NCBI GenBank assembly: GCA_903848905.1
Contig: CAINHP010000055.1
Span: forward strand, 1 to 32,136
Direction of reading: 5' to 3'
Length of the DNA: 32,136 nucleotides
Source of the DNA: an uncultured Pseudomonadota bacterium
GTDB lineage: Bacteria > Pseudomonadota > Gammaproteobacteria > Methylococcales > Methylomonadaceae
Shown: positions 24,776 to 31,795 of the stretch, piece by piece
Numbering within the stretch: position 1 is the stretch's first letter
Layout of the letters: each line of letters starts with the position of its first letter
Translations under genes and position numbers: made by a program
Notes under the pieces: model-generated
The model's input: the letters and a program-made list of their open reading frames with translations, nothing else
What the model was told of the DNA's origin: nothing
Database searches by the model: none

Positions 24776-25416
24776 TGCACGAAAAATATTTTGATATTAC
24801 TTGCCAAAAATGTCCGCGTTTAGCGGCATTTTTGTGTGATGTAAAAGAAAAAAATCCTACATACCATGCAAAGCCTGTTGCGCCGTTTGGGGATGAGAAT
24901 GCAAGGTTGCTTATAGTGGGTCTTGCACCAGGAATGCACGGAGCAAACGCCACAGGTCGGCCATTTACGGGTGATTTTGCGGGCATTTTACTTTATAAAG
25001 CATTGCATGAATTTGGATTTAGTAATTGTTCTGAATCGACGGCATTTAATGATGGTCTATTCTTAAAAAATGCACGAATTACCAATGCAGTCAAATGCTT
25101 ACCACCACAAAATAAACCTAAAAGTGAAGAGATAAATACTTGTAATTCTTTCTTAAGTGCGGAATTGAGAACGTTGCCAGAAAACGCCGTTATTCTTGCG
25201 CTTGGGAGTATTGCGCATCAAGCGGTTTTAAAAGCCTACGATTTGAAAGTAACTAGCGCAAAATTTGCACACAACAGTTATTTTGAATTTGAAAATAAAA
25301 ATTCACTTGTTTCGTCATACCACACAAGTCGCTATAACATTCAAACTAAAAGATTAACCAAGTCTATGTTTACAGACGTTTTTAAAACAATAGCGTATCT
25401 GTTAGCACGTTCGTAG
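24775..25416 (+). CDS. Family 5 (UDGb-type) uracil-DNA glycosylase
   Basis: A 213-residue protein of the uracil-DNA glycosylase superfamily. Motif A, GLAPGMHGANATGRPFTGD, begins near residue 43 and is the family 5 (UDGb) form, with no Asp or Asn general base at the usual site. ITNAVKCLPPQNKP is near residue 102, and SYHTSRYN near residue 179 corresponds to the HPSPLN-like motif. The cysteines near the N terminus (CQKCPRLAAFLCD) fit the iron-sulfur cluster of this family. Family 5 enzymes remove uracil and hypoxanthine-type deaminated bases from DNA. Start and cysJ stop overlap as TAATG, so it is translationally coupled to a nitrogen-metabolism operon; the functional link is unclear. Confidence 0.88.
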   Translation: MHEKYFDITCQKCPRLAAFLCDVKEKNPTYHAKPVAPFGDENARLLIVGLAPGMHGANATGRPFTGDFAGILLYKALHEFGFSNCSESTAFNDGLFLKNARITNAVKCLPPQNKPKSEEINTCNSFLSAELRTLPENAVILALGSIAHQAVLKAYDLKVTSAKFAHNSYFEFENKNSLVSSYHTSRYNIQTKRLTKSMFTDVFKTIAYLLARS

Positions 25417-25440
25417 ATAATATTTGGTGTGATACAAATG

Positions 25441-25479
25441 AAAAGCCGTGTCTAAGAATATTTAGAGGCGGCTTTTTTT
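25441..25479 (+). terminator. Rho-independent terminator of the gltB operon
   Basis: A stem of AAAAGCCG and CGGCTTTT extended by TCTAA/TTAGA with a small internal mismatch, followed by seven T. It separates the gltB-cysJ-UDG operon from the multicopper oxidase gene. Confidence 0.85.
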
Positions 25480-25525
25480 GTGTACAATGGATTTTTAAAA
25501 AAATAAAAAGGGCTCACTTAAGTTT

Positions 25526-27190
25526 ATGGTAAAAAAATATTTTATTTGGGGTGGGTGGTTAATCGCATTAGCTCTAATTATTTTGTTAGTTAAGTGGTTT
25601 TTCGTGCTGGAAGAGCATGCTCGAGCTAGGCCTCCTGCGACGGTTTCTAGTAGTGCAGATAATGCAAATGTTGAAAAGCCGTGTACAGATGATCATGTTG
25701 AATGGCGAGGAGCTCAGGAAATTGAAGGTGTTTCTATATTGGCGTCGCCAGTTTGTGAGCCTGATAATCCGTACACTATTGCAGCGGCAACTAAGGGTAC
25801 AAATAATGTGTCAATGTCAACGCTTATGCAAAGTCATTTGGCGCAAGATTCTATTGTGATGGGGGAAGATTTAGATCACGATGGTGATCCTGATGTTATT
25901 CACATTAAGTTAGAAGTTGTTGAGCTTAACGGATTTAGTCCAGATGGGGATTATTTGATGAATACATATAATATTGCTCCTGGATTACAGCCTTCATTGT
26001 GGGTCTATGCACCTAAAATGCAAGGGATGGCCGTAAAGAATTTCAATTCCCGTGTTGCTCATCCATTGCTTCGAGCTCCTTCTCCTGTTATTCGTGTTGA
26101 GCAAGGTGACAAAGTATATATAACGCTAGAGAATACGCATTACCTTCCACATACAATTCATTTACATGGAGTAGACCATCCGTGGTTAAACTCAAAGGGC
26201 CAAGATAATGATGGTATGGAGGAGCATGCGATTTTTCCAGGCAAACAACATACCTATGAAATTCAGCCCAGGCATGCTGGTACGATGCTATATCACTGTC
26301 ATGTCCAAACTGCTCAACACTTCATGATGGGGTTGAATGGTATGTTTATTGTGGAAGAAAATCGGCCAAACAATTGGGTGCAAACATTGAACGTGGGTGC
26401 AGGGCAGGTGCGGCATCCTTCTGTCTCGGTTAAAAAACAATATGATCAAGAATATGATCTTCATTATCAATCTCTCGATAAGCAGTTGACAAAAATTCCA
26501 CAAGAAGCGAATGATCCTCGCTTAATAAGTCAGAAAATGAGTCGTGATTACAATATGTCAACTTCAACGGAAAATTACTTTCTATTGAATGGGCATTCAT
26601 TTCCTTACACATTAAGAGATGCAATGATTGTAGCGGGTGAAAATGAAAACATAAAATTACATATCGCAAATCTGCAGCGAACACCCATTGCTGTGCATTT
26701 TCATGGGCATAAGGCAACAATTATGGCCTATGATGGCGTAGATGCTCAGCAAGGCTCTCAGATAACACGAGATGTCTTTGATGTTTCGCCTGCACAGCGA
26801 CTTGATCTATCCCTTAAGACACAAAATGATGGGTTAAATAGTTATGGAGCAGGGCTTTGGATGTTTCATGATCATGTGCCAACAGGGTCAACCACCGATG
26901 GGATGGAGCCGGGAGGAAACATGGCAATTTTAGCGTATAAAAAATTATTGGATGAACAAGGAATGCCCACTATGCATGAGGGTATGTTCAATGATGTTTT
27001 CAATAAAGAGTATTACGCAAAAAAACGTCCAATTTGGTCTGTTGGTGATTTTGCCTTCCTGTTAGGGGATGCTGGCTTGGTAGTTCCTGAAAATGGAGAG
27101 TTAATCGCATTCTTCATTGTGTTGGGATTATTGCTGGGAATAATTGGAATGCTTATGTGGATTTATGTGAAGAAAGATTATGAAAATTAA
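25526..27190 (+). CDS. Membrane-anchored two-domain multicopper oxidase
   Basis: A 554-residue copper oxidase. An N-terminal anchor (about residues 7-27) and a C-terminal helix (about 527-548, ending VKKDYEN) place the body in the periplasm. Cupredoxin domain 1 has HTIHLHG with H209, H212 and H214, and YHCHVQTAQHFMMG with H257, C258, H259 and H265, giving a type 1 copper Cys plus trinuclear-centre histidines. Domain 2 has VHFHGH (H391, H393, H395) and MFHDHV (H448, H450) but no Cys. So the type 1 copper seems to be in the first domain only. The next gene, a cupredoxin, overlaps by 11 bp, and pmoCAB follows. Possible roles are Cu(I) oxidation or copper handling for pMMO, or oxidase/electron-transfer activity; none is proven. 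Confidence 0.85.
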   Translation: MVKKYFIWGGWLIALALIILLVKWFFVLEEHARARPPATVSSSADNANVEKPCTDDHVEWRGAQEIEGVSILASPVCEPDNPYTIAAATKGTNNVSMSTLMQSHLAQDSIVMGEDLDHDGDPDVIHIKLEVVELNGFSPDGDYLMNTYNIAPGLQPSLWVYAPKMQGMAVKNFNSRVAHPLLRAPSPVIRVEQGDKVYITLENTHYLPHTIHLHGVDHPWLNSKGQDNDGMEEHAIFPGKQHTYEIQPRHAGTMLYHCHVQTAQHFMMGLNGMFIVEENRPNNWVQTLNVGAGQVRHPSVSVKKQYDQEYDLHYQSLDKQLTKIPQEANDPRLISQKMSRDYNMSTSTENYFLLNGHSFPYTLRDAMIVAGENENIKLHIANLQRTPIAVHFHGHKATIMAYDGVDAQQGSQITRDVFDVSPAQRLDLSLKTQNDGLNSYGAGLWMFHDHVPTGSTTDGMEPGGNMAILAYKKLLDEQGMPTMHEGMFNDVFNKEYYAKKRPIWSVGDFAFLLGDAGLVVPENGELIAFFIVLGLLLGIIGMLMWIYVKKDYEN

Positions 27191-27851
27191 GATATTAAAA
27201 GACTTATTTAAAATAATTTCTATTATATTTATCTTGGTGTTGAATGTAGCGCAAGTAAGTTTTGCAATGATGTCCATGGATGAAAAGGGAATGGTCATGA
27301 ACGCGAATAATGATAATTTACCTAAAGACTGTCCGAAAATTTCAGAAGAAGTTAATTTGAGTGTTCATGCAGGAAGGAAATACGCCACGAAATTTAATGG
27401 AAAAATGTTTGCCTTTGACCAGCAAGAGTGGAATGTGGCGCCATGTGCAAAAATCAATATTACATTTATAAATGACGATCAAATCAGGCATCAGTTGATG
27501 ATTCATGGTTTGCCTGGTTATTTATATCCAGAAGGTATGCTCCATTTGGAACTTTACGGTGAGGGTGAGCTTCACGCATCAGTTATATTGCCTAGCCAAA
27601 AAAAGACGTATCTTGTGCATTGTGAATTGGCACAACATGCAGAGAAGGGTATGAAAGCGCAATTGAAAGTGGGTGGTGGCGATGGGGATCTGCCAAGTAT
27701 TCCCGCACTCAGTGCGCCAGTGAAAGTAGATATTTATAAATTAGATTGGCAGGCAGTAATGTGGGGCGGAGTGCTGATTTTACTAGTCTCAGTGCTTGCT
27801 TTTTATAGTGGTCGAGTTTTGTTTTTGTATTATTTGAAAATGAACAAATAG
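27180..27851 (+). CDS. Membrane-anchored blue-copper (cupredoxin) protein
   Basis: A 223-residue protein with a signal peptide (cut probably after VSFA, residue 30), a periplasmic domain and a C-terminal membrane helix (about 196-217, then YYLKMNK). A complete type 1 copper ligand set can be read: H104 (IRHQLM), then C148, H153 and M158 in VHCELAQHAEKGM, spaced C-x4-H-x4-M. This is a plastocyanin/nitrosocyanin-like fold by pattern, not a named family I can assign. Being tied to the membrane and overlapping the multicopper oxidase gene by 11 bp, it is a likely electron or copper partner of that enzyme, or of pMMO, encoded 225 bp downstream. Confidence 0.8.
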   Translation: MKIKILKDLFKIISIIFILVLNVAQVSFAMMSMDEKGMVMNANNDNLPKDCPKISEEVNLSVHAGRKYATKFNGKMFAFDQQEWNVAPCAKINITFINDDQIRHQLMIHGLPGYLYPEGMLHLELYGEGELHASVILPSQKKTYLVHCELAQHAEKGMKAQLKVGGGDGDLPSIPALSAPVKVDIYKLDWQAVMWGGVLILLVSVLAFYSGRVLFLYYLKMNK

Positions 27852-27924: not shown

Positions 27925-27952
27925 TTGACAACAAAGAATGAACTGGTAGACT
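27925..27952 (+). promoter_or_regulatory. Candidate sigma-70 promoter of pmoCAB
   Basis: A perfect TTGACA (27925-27930) is followed after 16 bp by TAGACT (27947-27952), four of six matches to TATAAT. It implies a leader of about 118 nt before pmoC. pmoC of other gammaproteobacterial methanotrophs is also transcribed from a sigma-70 type promoter, so this is expected. Confidence 0.65.
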
Positions 27953-28076: not shown

Positions 28077-28829
28077 ATGGCCGCTACAACCGAATCAGTG
28101 AGAGCTGATGTTGCGGAAGCACCGCTTTTAAACAAAAAAAATATGTTCGCAGGCGCAGCACTTTACATTGTGTTCTACGGCTGGGTTCGTTGGTATGAAG
28201 GGGTTTACGGCTGGTCAGCTGGTTTAGACTCATTTGCGCCAGAATTTGAAACATACTGGATGAACTTCCTTTATATTGAAATGGTACTAGAAATCGTAAC
28301 CGCTTCTGTATTATGGGGTTATATCTGGAAAAGTCGTGATCGTAAAGTGATGTCAATCACACCACGTGAAGAATTGCGTCGTCATTTCACACATTGGGTA
28401 TGGTTAGTAATGTACGGTATCGCAATTTATTACGGTGCGTCTTACTTCACTGAACAAGATGGTACATGGCATCAAACAATCGTTCGTGACACTGACTTTA
28501 CTCCAAGTCACGTTATCGAATTTTATTTGAGCTACCCAATCTATATCATTACTGGTGTTGCTTCTTTCTTATATGCTAAAACTAGATTGCCAACCTATCA
28601 ACAAGGTTTGCCATTACAGTATTTAGTATCAGTAATTGGACCTTTCATGATTCTTCCAAACGTAGGTTTGAATGAATGGGGTCACACTTTCTGGTTTATG
28701 GAAGAATTGTTTGTTGCTCCTTTACACTACGGCTTCGTATTCTTCGGATGGGCTGCTTTAGGTGTATTAGGTGTTGTGAACATCGAAGTTGGTGCTCTTT
28801 CTAAACTGTTGAAAAAAGACTTAGCTTAA
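28077..28829 (+). CDS. pmoC: Particulate methane monooxygenase subunit C
   Basis: A 250-residue integral membrane subunit of pMMO, the copper enzyme oxidising methane to methanol. The metal ligands known from Methylococcus capsulatus are conserved with a constant offset of 28: D128, H132 and H145 (D156, H160, H173 there; EQDGTWH...PSH) for the CuC site, and N199, H203 and H217 (N227, H231, H245; NEWGHTFW...PLH) for the CuD site. TAGGAGG gives a near-ideal ribosome site. The gene order C-A-B is that of pMMO operons, not of pxmABC. Confidence 0.98.
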   Translation: MAATTESVRADVAEAPLLNKKNMFAGAALYIVFYGWVRWYEGVYGWSAGLDSFAPEFETYWMNFLYIEMVLEIVTASVLWGYIWKSRDRKVMSITPREELRRHFTHWVWLVMYGIAIYYGASYFTEQDGTWHQTIVRDTDFTPSHVIEFYLSYPIYIITGVASFLYAKTRLPTYQQGLPLQYLVSVIGPFMILPNVGLNEWGHTFWFMEELFVAPLHYGFVFFGWAALGVLGVVNIEVGALSKLLKKDLA

Positions 28830-28972: not shown

Positions 28973-29722
28973 ATGAGCGCATCTCAATCAGCTGTACGGT
29001 CTCGCGCTGAAGCGGTAAAAGTTTCACGCACATTTGACTGGATGATTTTGTTTACGTTGTTCTTCGTAGTATTAGGTGGTTACCACATTCACTATATGTT
29101 GACTGGTGGTGACTGGGATTTCTGGACAGACTGGAAAGATAGACGTTTATGGGTAACCGTTGCGCCAATCGTTTCAATCACGTTCCCTGCTGCAGTTCAA
29201 GCATGCTTATGGTACCGTTACAGATTGCCTTATGGCGCTGTTGTATGTATTTTAGGTTTGTTATTAGGTGAATGGGTTAACCGCTACTTAAACTTCTGGG
29301 GTTGGACATACTTCCCAGTAAACTTCGTATTCCCTTCACAATTAATTCCTGGTGCAATTGCACTTGACGTAATTATGATGTTGGGTGGAAGTATGACATT
29401 AACTGCTGTTGCTGGTGGTATGGCATGGGGTTTATTGTTCTATCCAGGTAACTGGCCAGTTATGGCTCCATTACATGTACCTGTTGAATACAACGGTATG
29501 ATGATGACTTTAGCTGACTTACAAGGTTACCACTACGTAAGAACTGGTACACCTGAATACATCCGTATGGTAGAAAAAGGTACATTAAGAACTTTCGGTA
29601 AAGACGTTGCTCCAGTATCAGCGTTCTTTTCTGGCTTCGTAAGTATCATTATTTACTTCTTGTGGCATTTCTTCGGTAGATGGTTCGCTTCAACAGCTTT
29701 CGTCGATGGCGAAAACGTTTAA
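28973..29722 (+). CDS. pmoA: Particulate methane monooxygenase subunit A
   Basis: A 249-residue membrane subunit (247 in Methylococcus capsulatus) and the standard marker gene of methanotrophs. GGDWDFWTDW, QACLWYRYRLPYG, YFPVNFVFPSQLIPGA and WPVMAPLHVPVEYNG are diagnostic of PmoA rather than AmoA. E195 (GTPEYIRM), near the PmoC metal site in crystal structures, is conserved. The ribosome site AGGAGG stands eight bases ahead of the ATG. Phe, Tyr and Asn codons mostly end in C, in contrast with the surrounding genes, as expected for very high expression. Confidence 0.98.
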   Translation: MSASQSAVRSRAEAVKVSRTFDWMILFTLFFVVLGGYHIHYMLTGGDWDFWTDWKDRRLWVTVAPIVSITFPAAVQACLWYRYRLPYGAVVCILGLLLGEWVNRYLNFWGWTYFPVNFVFPSQLIPGAIALDVIMMLGGSMTLTAVAGGMAWGLLFYPGNWPVMAPLHVPVEYNGMMMTLADLQGYHYVRTGTPEYIRMVEKGTLRTFGKDVAPVSAFFSGFVSIIIYFLWHFFGRWFASTAFVDGENV

Positions 29723-29754
29723 TCTGCGACTACCATTACCACATAGGGGGATAT

Positions 29755-30999
29755 ATGAAATTATTAAAAGACAAAGTTGCTAAATTGTCCTTTGTTGCAT
29801 TGCTTGCGGCTTCTTCTGCAGCAATGCTCTACACACCAACAGCTGCGGCTCACGGTGAAAAATCACAAGCAGCGTTCATGCGTATGCGTACTATTCACTG
29901 GTTTGACCTAAACTGGTCAAAAGAAGAAGTGAAAGTTAACGATACAATGACCGTAACAGGTAAATTCTTGGTTTTCGCAGGATGGCCTGAAACTGTTGAC
30001 AAACCAGACATTGCTTTCTTAAACGTTGGTATTCCTGGTCCAGTTTTCATTCGTGCAGGTTCATGGATTGGTGGTCAATTAGTACCACGTTCAGTTTCAT
30101 TGGAATTGGGCGAAGTTTATGAATTCAAAGTATTATTGAAAGCACGTCGTCCAGGTGACTGGCACGTACATTCAATGATGAACGTTAAAGGCGGTGGTCC
30201 AATCATCGGTCCTGGTAAATGGACAACCATTACCGGTTCTATGAAAGACTTTGTTAACCCTGTAACAACATTAACAGGCGAAACAATCAACCTTGAAACC
30301 TACAATCTTGAAAATACATACTTCTGGCATACCTTGTGGTATGCAATTGGTTTAGCTTGGTTGGCTTATTGGGTTCGTAAACCAATGTTCATTCCACGTA
30401 GTATCGCGGTTGAATCAGGTAAAGCAAATACATTGATTACTAACACTGACAGACAAGTTGGTATTGGTTTCATCGTAGGTACTATTGCTTTAGTTGCAAT
30501 GAGTATGGTTTCTACAAATGAAAAGTATCCTGTAACAACACCGCTACAAGCTGGTTTGTTACGTGGTATGAAGCCTTATGAAATGCCTGCAAGAACTGTT
30601 ACTGTTAAAGTTGAAGATGCAACTTACCGTGTACCAGGTCGTGCAATGCAAATGACTTTGAAAGTTACAAACAATGGTGATTCAGCAGTTCGTTTAGGTG
30701 AATTCAACACTGCTTCTGTTCGTTTCTTAGATCCAGCTGTATTAGAAGATACAACTGGTTATCCAGACGATTTGTTAGCTGAAGAAGGTTTGACTGTTAG
30801 TGATAACAGTCCATTGAAACCAGGTCAAACAAGAACTATTCAAGTAACTGCGTCTGACGCTGCTTGGGAAGTTTATCGTTTAGCTGATTTGATCTACGAT
30901 CCAGACAGTCGTTTTGCTGGCTTGTTGTTCTTCTTTGATGAAAACGGCAAACGTCAAATGATTACAGTGGATGCTCCATTAATTCCTGTATTCATCTAA
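29755..30999 (+). CDS. pmoB: Particulate methane monooxygenase subunit B
   Basis: A 414-residue subunit with a large periplasmic copper-binding part. The true start is the ATG at 29755; the frame runs on upstream inside pmoA, but GGGGGATAT and a clear signal peptide (MKLLKDKVAKLSFVALLAAS and on to TPTAAA) support this one. Cleavage exposes H33 as the mature N terminus. H33, H48 (RTIHWF) and H137/H139 (DWHVHSMM) match the copper ligands of Methylococcus capsulatus residue for residue. Two membrane helices (near 188-205 and 235-255) separate the two cupredoxin domains. The gap to pmoA is 32 bp. Confidence 0.98.
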   Translation: MKLLKDKVAKLSFVALLAASSAAMLYTPTAAAHGEKSQAAFMRMRTIHWFDLNWSKEEVKVNDTMTVTGKFLVFAGWPETVDKPDIAFLNVGIPGPVFIRAGSWIGGQLVPRSVSLELGEVYEFKVLLKARRPGDWHVHSMMNVKGGGPIIGPGKWTTITGSMKDFVNPVTTLTGETINLETYNLENTYFWHTLWYAIGLAWLAYWVRKPMFIPRSIAVESGKANTLITNTDRQVGIGFIVGTIALVAMSMVSTNEKYPVTTPLQAGLLRGMKPYEMPARTVTVKVEDATYRVPGRAMQMTLKVTNNGDSAVRLGEFNTASVRFLDPAVLEDTTGYPDDLLAEEGLTVSDNSPLKPGQTRTIQVTASDAAWEVYRLADLIYDPDSRFAGLLFFFDENGKRQMITVDAPLIPVFI

Positions 31000-31162: not shown

Positions 31163-31795
31163 TTAATTAGTTTTACGTTTTTTACGGAAATAAAAAATAC
31201 TAAATATAAATGCAATTAAAGCTGGAATTCCACCAGCAATTGCAATTTGCATGTTTTCAGTTAATTTAGACAGTATTGATGATTCACCCACGTGAAAATT
31301 AATTTTGAGTCTATCTTCTTCAGATATCGCTTCGTCGCCACCTATAGCTAATATGAGCGAATAATCACCTAATTTATCTAAATCAGCTTGAGCTTCTACA
31401 ACCCCTTTTGAATATATTTTGGGTTGAACTTCATTAAGTGTGCGAATTTCTCTGAAATCTAAAGGTTTTTCCCATATTTTTTCAATTTCAACAACACGTA
31501 TTCCTATGGGGGTTTTACGAATATCACGATCGATTAGGTCTGCGGAAAAAAAAGCTTTACCAATAGTGGGTAATTCTTGACAGTAAGGTTTTAAAAGAGC
31601 TTCGCGATCATTGCCTTCGAGTAGTGTTTTTGGTTTTAAATAAGCGCTGAAATGTACAGCATAAAAATCATTTGCAATTAGACATCCTACGCTATTTATA
31701 TCAGCAATTTGTGGAGGAGTTCCTAATTTATCATTGCTGCAACTTGTCAGAAGTAATGTTGAAATAAGAGTCGTTACAAAATATTTTTTCTTCAT
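31163..31795 (-). CDS. Unknown periplasmic lipoprotein with C-terminal membrane helix
   Basis: A 210-residue protein I cannot name by family. It starts with a lipoprotein-like signal (STLLLTSC, Cys about residue 19), has a mainly beta-type polar body with the motif DRDIRKTPIGIRVVEIEK near residue 95, and ends in a membrane helix (IAIAGGIPALIAFIFSIFYF) followed by RKKRKTN. Signal, periplasmic body and C-terminal helix is also the layout of PmoD/AmoD-type accessory proteins that accompany pmo and amo operons. Together with the adjacent CopC gene, this makes such a role plausible, but residues of a copper site are not evident. It is convergent to pmoB and 54 bp downstream of copC. Confidence 0.65.
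   Translation of the reverse strand: MKKKYFVTTLISTLLLTSCSNDKLGTPPQIADINSVGCLIANDFYAVHFSAYLKPKTLLEGNDREALLKPYCQELPTIGKAFFSADLIDRDIRKTPIGIRVVEIEKIWEKPLDFREIRTLNEVQPKIYSKGVVEAQADLDKLGDYSLILAIGGDEAISEEDRLKINFHVGESSILSKLTENMQIAIAGGIPALIAFIFSIFYFRKKRKTN

Follow-up and report, generated by a model that had tools for sequence, protein, structure and literature searches.

The gene pair upstream of pmoCAB

In a 32,136-nucleotide stretch of DNA from a lake bacterium (the window), two genes on one strand encode a membrane-anchored multicopper oxidase (MCO; ORF1) and a membrane-anchored cupredoxin (ORF2). The two reading frames overlap by 11 bp, and pmoCAB, the genes for particulate methane monooxygenase (pMMO), lie downstream on the same strand after a gap of 225 bp. 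Coordinates, Pfam matches and conservation confirm this overlapping pair beside pmoCAB, which a preliminary description had reported from the sequence alone. Homologues of each protein occur in 290 of 301 sampled genomes of the window's order, judged from named relatives to be Methylococcales (MCO at E up to 1e-30, cupredoxin at E up to 1e-10; positions are among the matches listed, in which weaker ones are incomplete), and the pair is therefore not a chance arrangement. The two-gene unit is old: almost every genome sampled from the order has it, as do a small number of other Gammaproteobacteria, and most of these carry a copper membrane monooxygenase (CuMMO).

Hydropathy places a hydrophobic segment at each end of both proteins (residues 10-28 and 526-544 of ORF1; 12-30, probably a signal peptide, and 192-216 of ORF2), bearing out the membrane anchoring described earlier. 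From these segments we infer that the copper domains of both proteins lie in the periplasm with their anchors in the inner membrane, and to that extent the earlier view of anchored, periplasm-facing copper proteins is supported.

Copper sites of the multicopper oxidase

ORF1 matches the Pfam families Cu-oxidase_3 (E 1.3e-21) and Cu-oxidase_2 (E 6.8e-20) and carries the type 1 Cys-His together with the four HxH-type trinuclear motifs of an MCO. Residues H209, H212, H214, H257, C258, H259, H265, H391, H393, H448 and H450 are invariant in all 14 aligned MCOs, drawn from the order and from outside it. By homology, the basis on which ligand roles in both proteins are assigned, H209, C258 and H265 form the type 1 site and eight histidines the trinuclear site. 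The full motif set is present in 51 of 53 sequences, the remaining two carrying HNH in place of HDH. At the axial position, as aligned to Protein Data Bank (PDB) entry 3g5w, ORF1 has Leu270; Leu occupies this position in 50 of the 53 sequences and Met in three.

The enzyme had also been called two-domain. Two segments that match 3g5w, together with the Pfam stretches, all fall within the last two thirds of ORF1, and the term covers just this portion because the N-terminal stretch of ~180 aa has no Pfam match. The structure model of the MCO is poor (pLDDT 52) and was not used. A D.D.DGDPD loop, a possible calcium site, is found in the N-terminal region of 53/53 sequences. Within residues 30-180, a cysteine pair (C53/C77) is invariant in all 14 aligned MCOs.

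NirK identity is rejected for this MCO by the presence of HCH and HDH, histidines typical of O2-reducing MCOs and not of the NirK type. The same residues bear on a likeness drawn earlier to the ncgABC-nirK copper cluster of Nitrosomonas, in which the pair would act on NO or nitrite by-products of ammonia oxidation by pMMO, an explanation that we consider very improbable. A related MCO does underlie the comparison, the best PDB sequence match being 3g5w, which we take to be the blue copper oxidase of Nitrosomonas europaea, and norCB-like genes adjoin the pair in one genome, G662 (throughout, G denotes a genome, with G000 the window's, L a locus, C a contig, g a genus and f a family). Such neighbours were noted at this one locus only, no systematic search for them having been made; the histidine set is that of an O2-reducing enzyme; and g35 and G310, both with divergent CuMMOs, have the pair as well. 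In ncgABC-nirK the nirK gene stands downstream of the MCO and cytochrome genes. In the window it is pmoCAB that follows the pair, and the likeness does not extend to membership of such a cluster.

Fold and tail of the cupredoxin

ORF2 scores barely above the cut-off for Cu-oxidase_2 (22.2 versus 20.4 bits) and below it for Copper-bind. Its type 1 site, H104/C148/H153/M158, has the form C-x4-H-x4-M. The motif H..HC-x4-H-x4-M occurs in 46 of 48 homologues, the other two having Leu at the Met position by eye, and the full H-C-H-M site described earlier thus holds. A Met-rich N-terminal tail precedes the core. Across the family the combined His and Met fraction has a median of 0.28 in the tail versus 0.10 in the core, and the tail exceeds the core in 44 of the 45 cupredoxins that could be scored (3/48 could not, and two scored tails, those of L190 and L194, comprise 4 and 7 residues by the pattern used).

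The AlphaFold model of ORF2, of moderate quality (pLDDT 69), has the cupredoxin Greek-key fold with the His-Cys-His-Met site and aligns with cupredoxin-fold chains at Z 9.9-11.7 over 87-125 residues among the 50 matches listed. Foldseek ranks AcoP best, followed by rusticyanin, pseudoazurin and auracyanin among many near-equal matches; a second structural aligner places nitrosocyanin first among near-ties. These matches fit an electron-transfer module, in which electrons would pass between quinol or cytochrome on one side and pMMO on the other by way of the cupredoxin, and the MCO would act as a small terminal oxidase, draining surplus electrons or scavenging O2 in the vicinity of pMMO. The intact type 1 site agrees with such a role. 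AcoP is itself an anchored protein that works with an oxidase, its partner being cytochrome c oxidase, and, by analogy with laccases, the axial Leu of the MCO would point to a type 1 site of high potential. The fold match is generic, however, and the model only moderate, while the Met/His-rich tail and a frequent link to PmoD (see below) point to copper binding. We regard electron transfer as unlikely; the oxidase and nor neighbours described below make it the main rival to the function proposed there.

Distribution and co-occurrence with copper monooxygenases

A tree of 53 MCOs (midpoint root) has a single deep split with support 96/95, separating 29 copy-A-like from 24 B-type sequences. ORF1 is a copy A, and the window's genome holds a second MCO (55%, contig C86) and a second cupredoxin (60%, contig C246). 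Copy A adjoins a cupredoxin gene in 13 of 14 loci of the window's genus, the remaining one being cut by a contig end, and in 45/45 loci from outside that genus; by script-chosen starts, the MCO stop and cupredoxin start mostly overlap. Among the best 80 loci of named relatives (65-98% identical to ORF1) the cupredoxin is next door in 79. The named relatives are Methylococcales, the nearest among the matches listed including isolate UBA10906 (83%). A phage or recent plasmid origin is rejected: no phage match is found at E 1e-20, and plasmid matches are only distant (29 records, of which the 20 listed are 22.7-30.9% identical, one from Deinococcus and the rest haloarchaeal by name).

In draws from the class and the phylum the MCO largely tracks AmoC. 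In an even draw of 274 genomes from the class, nine have AmoC, nine have the MCO and seven have both (Fisher p about 6e-11); three of these seven come from the order, one of them being the window's genome. The MCO occurs alone in G344 and G463, and AmoC alone in G328 and G512. Among 299 genomes drawn from the phylum, three have AmoC and two the MCO, both of these with AmoC, leaving AmoC alone in G746. The two draws share genomes and are not summed. AmoC was tested in 37 chosen genomes and in the class and phylum draws. Of the chosen genomes, 22 carry AmoC and the MCO, four AmoC and neither gene of the pair (G192, G071, G079 and G111), one AmoC with the cupredoxin only (G243), four the MCO without AmoC (G344, G463, G004 and G010), one the cupredoxin without AmoC (G248) and five none. 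Within genus g35, AmoC is present in 6/6 tested pair-bearing genomes and absent from four of five that lack the pair.

Genomic clustering and PmoD

In 12 of the 14 loci of the window's genus, pmo genes lie within the sampled stretch, and the other two stretches reach contig ends. Copy-A loci outside the genus have none (0/45, in stretches of 5.5-19 kb), and pmo adjacency as an order-wide trait is rejected on this ground. The expectation that the pair is kept next to pmoCAB in Methylococcales thus holds for the window's genus and fails for the copy-A loci sampled elsewhere. The preliminary description had added that a pair mostly far from pmo genes would count against its idea; in part, namely for copy A outside the genus, this is what we find. 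Because the window's genus is nested deep within copy A, its pmo linkage most simply arose separately from that of the B-type genes, as far as the tree can indicate.

In the remaining set of 30 loci (B-type, a few copy-A-like, and truncated), ten have pmo genes in the sampled stretch, a fraction that is not a frequency, as part of the set was fetched because MCO and AmoC already shared a contig. By group, clustering is seen in four of six g35 genomes and in 2/2 of g36. The pair lies downstream of the pmo genes on the same strand in g35 (L200, L201, L202 and L208), g36 (L203 and L204), G310 (L190) and G549 (L195), and upstream of them in G009 (L205) and G002 (L206). Clustering of the pair with CuMMO genes is thereby seen in the window's genus, g35, g36, f2 and f3 and, outside the order, in G310 and G549. 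Co-occurrence and repeated clustering, inside and outside the order, bear out the tie of the pair to CuMMOs. The window's genome also holds a pxmABC-like second CuMMO operon (L239:8715-11265, contig C150; order A-B-C by eye), whose B- and C-like frames are interrupted by decay or assembly error.

General periplasmic copper detoxification of the CueO/CopA kind, with pmo proximity merely reflecting copper-rich methanotrophs, would account for the lack of pmo genes around the pair at most sampled loci. Copper-resistance MCOs are common, CopC is encoded nearby in the window's genus, and ORF1 has matches to the copper_res_A and CueO models, though weak and far below the cut-offs. Against this explanation, the distribution is narrow and tracks CuMMO in both the class draw and the phylum draw, the pair repeatedly clusters with genes for CuMMO and PmoD, and the MCO has a dedicated cupredoxin partner; we judge it quite unlikely.

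The order pmoC-A-B-PmoD-MCO-cupredoxin is found at L200 and L202 (g35), L203 (g36) and L190 (G310), where the gene between pmoB and the MCO gene encodes a protein of ~180-210 aa. A profile of 15 such MCO-neighbour proteins matches PDB entry 6cpd (PmoD) at E 2e-28; by this profile match, the third gene beside the B-type MCO is of the PmoD family. Two cysteines are invariant in the aligned PmoD-like proteins. PmoD adjoins the MCO or cupredoxin gene in 18 of the 30 loci of the mostly B-type set, often as PmoD-MCO-cupredoxin, an arrangement that in several lineages immediately follows pmoCAB-like genes. In the window's genome the PmoD gene adjoins the second cupredoxin (L198). Beside copy A outside the window's genus it is absent (0/45 loci at tblastn E 1e-4). 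The preliminary description had set the pair apart from the named pmo accessory genes, a separation that does not survive the frequent adjacency of the B-type paralogue to PmoD. A small VTT/DedA-like membrane protein is encoded near the cupredoxin in many B-type loci, with tblastn matches in 13 fetched loci.

Part of this association is already known. According to the sections consulted of PMC6189053, PmoDs with a Cx8MxnC motif are commonly encoded near multicopper oxidase genes. PMC6688271, likewise in part, reports that in M. capsulatus the pmoD homologue MCA2130, which adjoins an MCO gene, is down-regulated without copper, and that pmoD adjoins an MCO gene in Kam1. The tags MCA2128-2130 are not present in the main text of the primary transcriptome paper (PMC4831470), so that the one source for the copper response is the sentence in PMC6688271. 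In family f4, taken for Methylococcaceae, loci L196 and L216 suggest that the MCO neighbour in M. capsulatus is the B-type enzyme. What appears new is the MCO-cupredoxin pair, which is not described in the open-access literature searched (subscription papers and supplements fall outside this scope), including the parts consulted of PMC4831470, PMC517821, PMC7902576, PMC4059628 and PMC10652631.

Surroundings of the pair in the window

A PmoD-family gene and copC near the pair are additional to the surroundings given in the preliminary description (Table 1). The PmoD-family gene, a divergent member convergent to pmoB, is the sole six-frame match in the window to a profile built without rows from the window's genus (60.4 bits, E 2.3e-18). 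Its product shows the Cys pair, a signal with a lipobox-like LTSC and a C-terminal hydrophobic stretch, the last two by eye. It lacks the CuA-forming Cx7MxHxnC motif of the in-operon subgroup, having C-x9-H-xn-C in its place, which would put it in the non-CuA class at best. PmoDs of the C-x9-H-xn-C class are reported to bind copper without CuA and to be often encoded near copC (PMC6189053, sections consulted). A relative of the window's gene occurs in nine of ten stretches of the genus (L038-L047, with L046 the one without), and copC adjoins the PmoD-like gene in this genus. Beyond the complete copC of another pmo island of the genus lies a thioredoxin/TlpA-like gene (L231:10363-10845); the window ends short of such a gene.

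Table 1. Positions of genes and candidate signals, in window coordinates unless a locus is named
Feature	Position	Strand	Basis or remarks
Terminator-like hairpin with T-run, after upstream UDG-family gene	25440..25482	+	Fold of 25415-25500
Candidate pair promoter TTTAGA-16-TACAAT, overlaps hairpin	25461..25488	+	Consensus scan and conservation
ORF1, membrane-anchored MCO, copy A	25526..27190	+	554 aa
ORF2, membrane-anchored cupredoxin	27180..27851	+	223 aa
Candidate pmoC promoter TTGACA-16-TAGACT, TG before second hexamer	27925..27952	+	Scan and conservation
pmoC	28077..28829	+	PF04896, E 8.5e-122
pmoA	28973..29722	+	PF02461, E 2.1e-128
pmoB	29680..30999	+	PF04744, E 3e-190
PmoD-family protein	31163..31795	-	Profile, tblastn, alignment; lipoprotein-like signal, C-x9-H-xn-C, C-terminal hydrophobic stretch
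copC, cut by contig end	31850..32134	-	Open reading frame; by eye matches complete L231 gene (PF04234, E 3.4e-21)
VTT/DedA-like gene	L200:6509-6943, L203:5867-6298, L205:2865-3314, L206:4823-5287

The true start of pmoB is probably ~75 bases further in, judging from relatives with a 414-aa reading frame. The hairpin ahead of ORF1 folds at -26.5 kcal/mol (z -6.1, 0/200 shuffles as good) and is absent from the output of a simple terminator scan. By eye, TGTACAAT stands upstream of ORF1 in nine of 12 aligned sequences of the genus, and the candidate pmoC promoter element is kept in 11/11 aligned intergenic stretches, an alignment that leaves out L118 for lack of a match to the start pattern. Overall, the promoter scan gives 22 sites versus 22.9 in shuffles, no enrichment, and for that reason only conservation of the candidate promoters carries weight.

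Proposed function

We propose, with a probability of roughly 0.5, that ORF1, ORF2 and PmoD form a periplasmic copper redox and maturation module for membrane copper enzymes, mainly CuMMOs. The PmoD partner would be the product of the gene next door in the B-type paralogue and of the convergent gene downstream of pmoB in the window. The cupredoxin would capture copper through its type 1 site and the tail rich in Met and His, and would exchange copper or electrons with the MCO; the MCO in turn may use O2 for the oxidation of Cu(I), or of the cupredoxin. In this way copper near the membrane would stay safe and deliverable to the monooxygenase and, in a single lineage, to cytochrome c oxidase. Direct support comes from gene structure, copper-site motifs, hydrophobic segments, conservation, co-occurrence and repeated CuMMO and PmoD clustering; we infer the MCO substrate, which way electrons or copper flow, and that pMMO is contacted. 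Three points favour copper redox and maturation: the PmoD link, the tail rich in Met and His, and the copper response reported for MCA2130.

Several observations weigh against this proposal. The Fisher p of the class draw ignores shared ancestry. One g35 genome (G039) has a broken or short MCO frame (440 aa, two tblastn pieces), and AmoC occurs without the MCO in G328, G512, G746, G192, G071, G079 and G111. Some of these are incomplete metagenome-assembled genomes, but G746 and G512 are listed at 100% completeness; a profile search gives no match at E 1e-10 in G746 and G328 and one weak general match in G512 (43.7 bits). The MCO is accordingly not essential for every CuMMO. Conversely, the module is present in G344 (one contig, 99% complete), which has no AmoC or AMO match, and the MCO is found in G463, G004 and G010 (87, 94 and 85% complete), again without such a match. 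In G662 (L225:6131-11024) the MCO and a cupredoxin whose tail is very rich in His have as neighbours genes read as norCB, the products of which are copper-free. The MCO lacks a long Met-rich insert such as that of CueO. The window pair probably has its own promoter, separate from the pmoC candidate; with pmoC under its own conserved promoter-like element, adjacency alone is no proof of co-transcription. Finally, biochemical or expression results on the pair were not met in the open-access literature searched, as far as its texts were consulted.

In G344, the PmoD, MCO and cupredoxin genes follow directly after genes of a caa3-type cytochrome c oxidase on one strand (L191:8545-16406; COX1 and COX2 with cytochrome c domains, the other oxidase genes named by eye). 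This context and that of G662 both accord with the electron-transfer alternative, and together they suggest a module for membrane redox enzymes broader than pMMO. G344 is also a case of PmoD in a genome without a CuMMO match.

A bolder form of the copper redox and maturation proposal, which we hold only tentatively and think somewhat unlikely, is that PmoD and the pair make up a dedicated complex which, in an O2-dependent manner, loads CuMMOs with copper (or passes electrons). With a cytochrome c oxidase in one lineage having adopted the same cassette, it would serve membrane copper oxidases in general as a maturation machine. Isolated pMMO is 10- to 100-fold less active (PMC6189053, sections consulted), and such a complex, if real, would be a missing component that could explain this loss. 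Copper loading of and electron supply to pMMO are an open question, for which the pair and PmoD give a short list of testable partners; the pair are good candidates for helping CuMMOs to obtain copper or electrons.

Comparison with known systems

The PmoD/AmoD family comprises small anchored periplasmic copper proteins tied to pMMO and AMO (PMC6189053). ORF1 and ORF2 are not members; the B-type neighbour and the product of the window's convergent gene are, by profile. The sections consulted of PMC6189053 contain no description of the cupredoxin partner, of near-universality in the order or of the pmo linkage of copy A.

Among proteins in the PDB, the best sequence matches of ORF1 are 3g5w and 2zwn (phmmer E 7e-26 and 1.8e-23). 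Both of their cupredoxin segments are matched, with the type 1 site in the first and trinuclear histidines in both. ORF1 is longer (554 aa versus 318-339 aa), having an extra N-terminal ~180 aa with the D.D.DGDPD loop and a hydrophobic segment at each end, and has Leu where 3g5w has Met at the axial position. With the copper-resistance MCOs CueO and CopA, ORF1 shares the MCO family, and cuprous oxidase chemistry is plausible; its scores against the two curated copper-resistance models are 35.3 and 41.0 bits, short of cut-offs of 525 and 479. ORF2 has the cupredoxin fold in common with AcoP, rusticyanin, pseudoazurin, auracyanin and nitrosocyanin at 12-23% identity in structural alignments, and differs from all five in its Met/His tail and its partner MCO.

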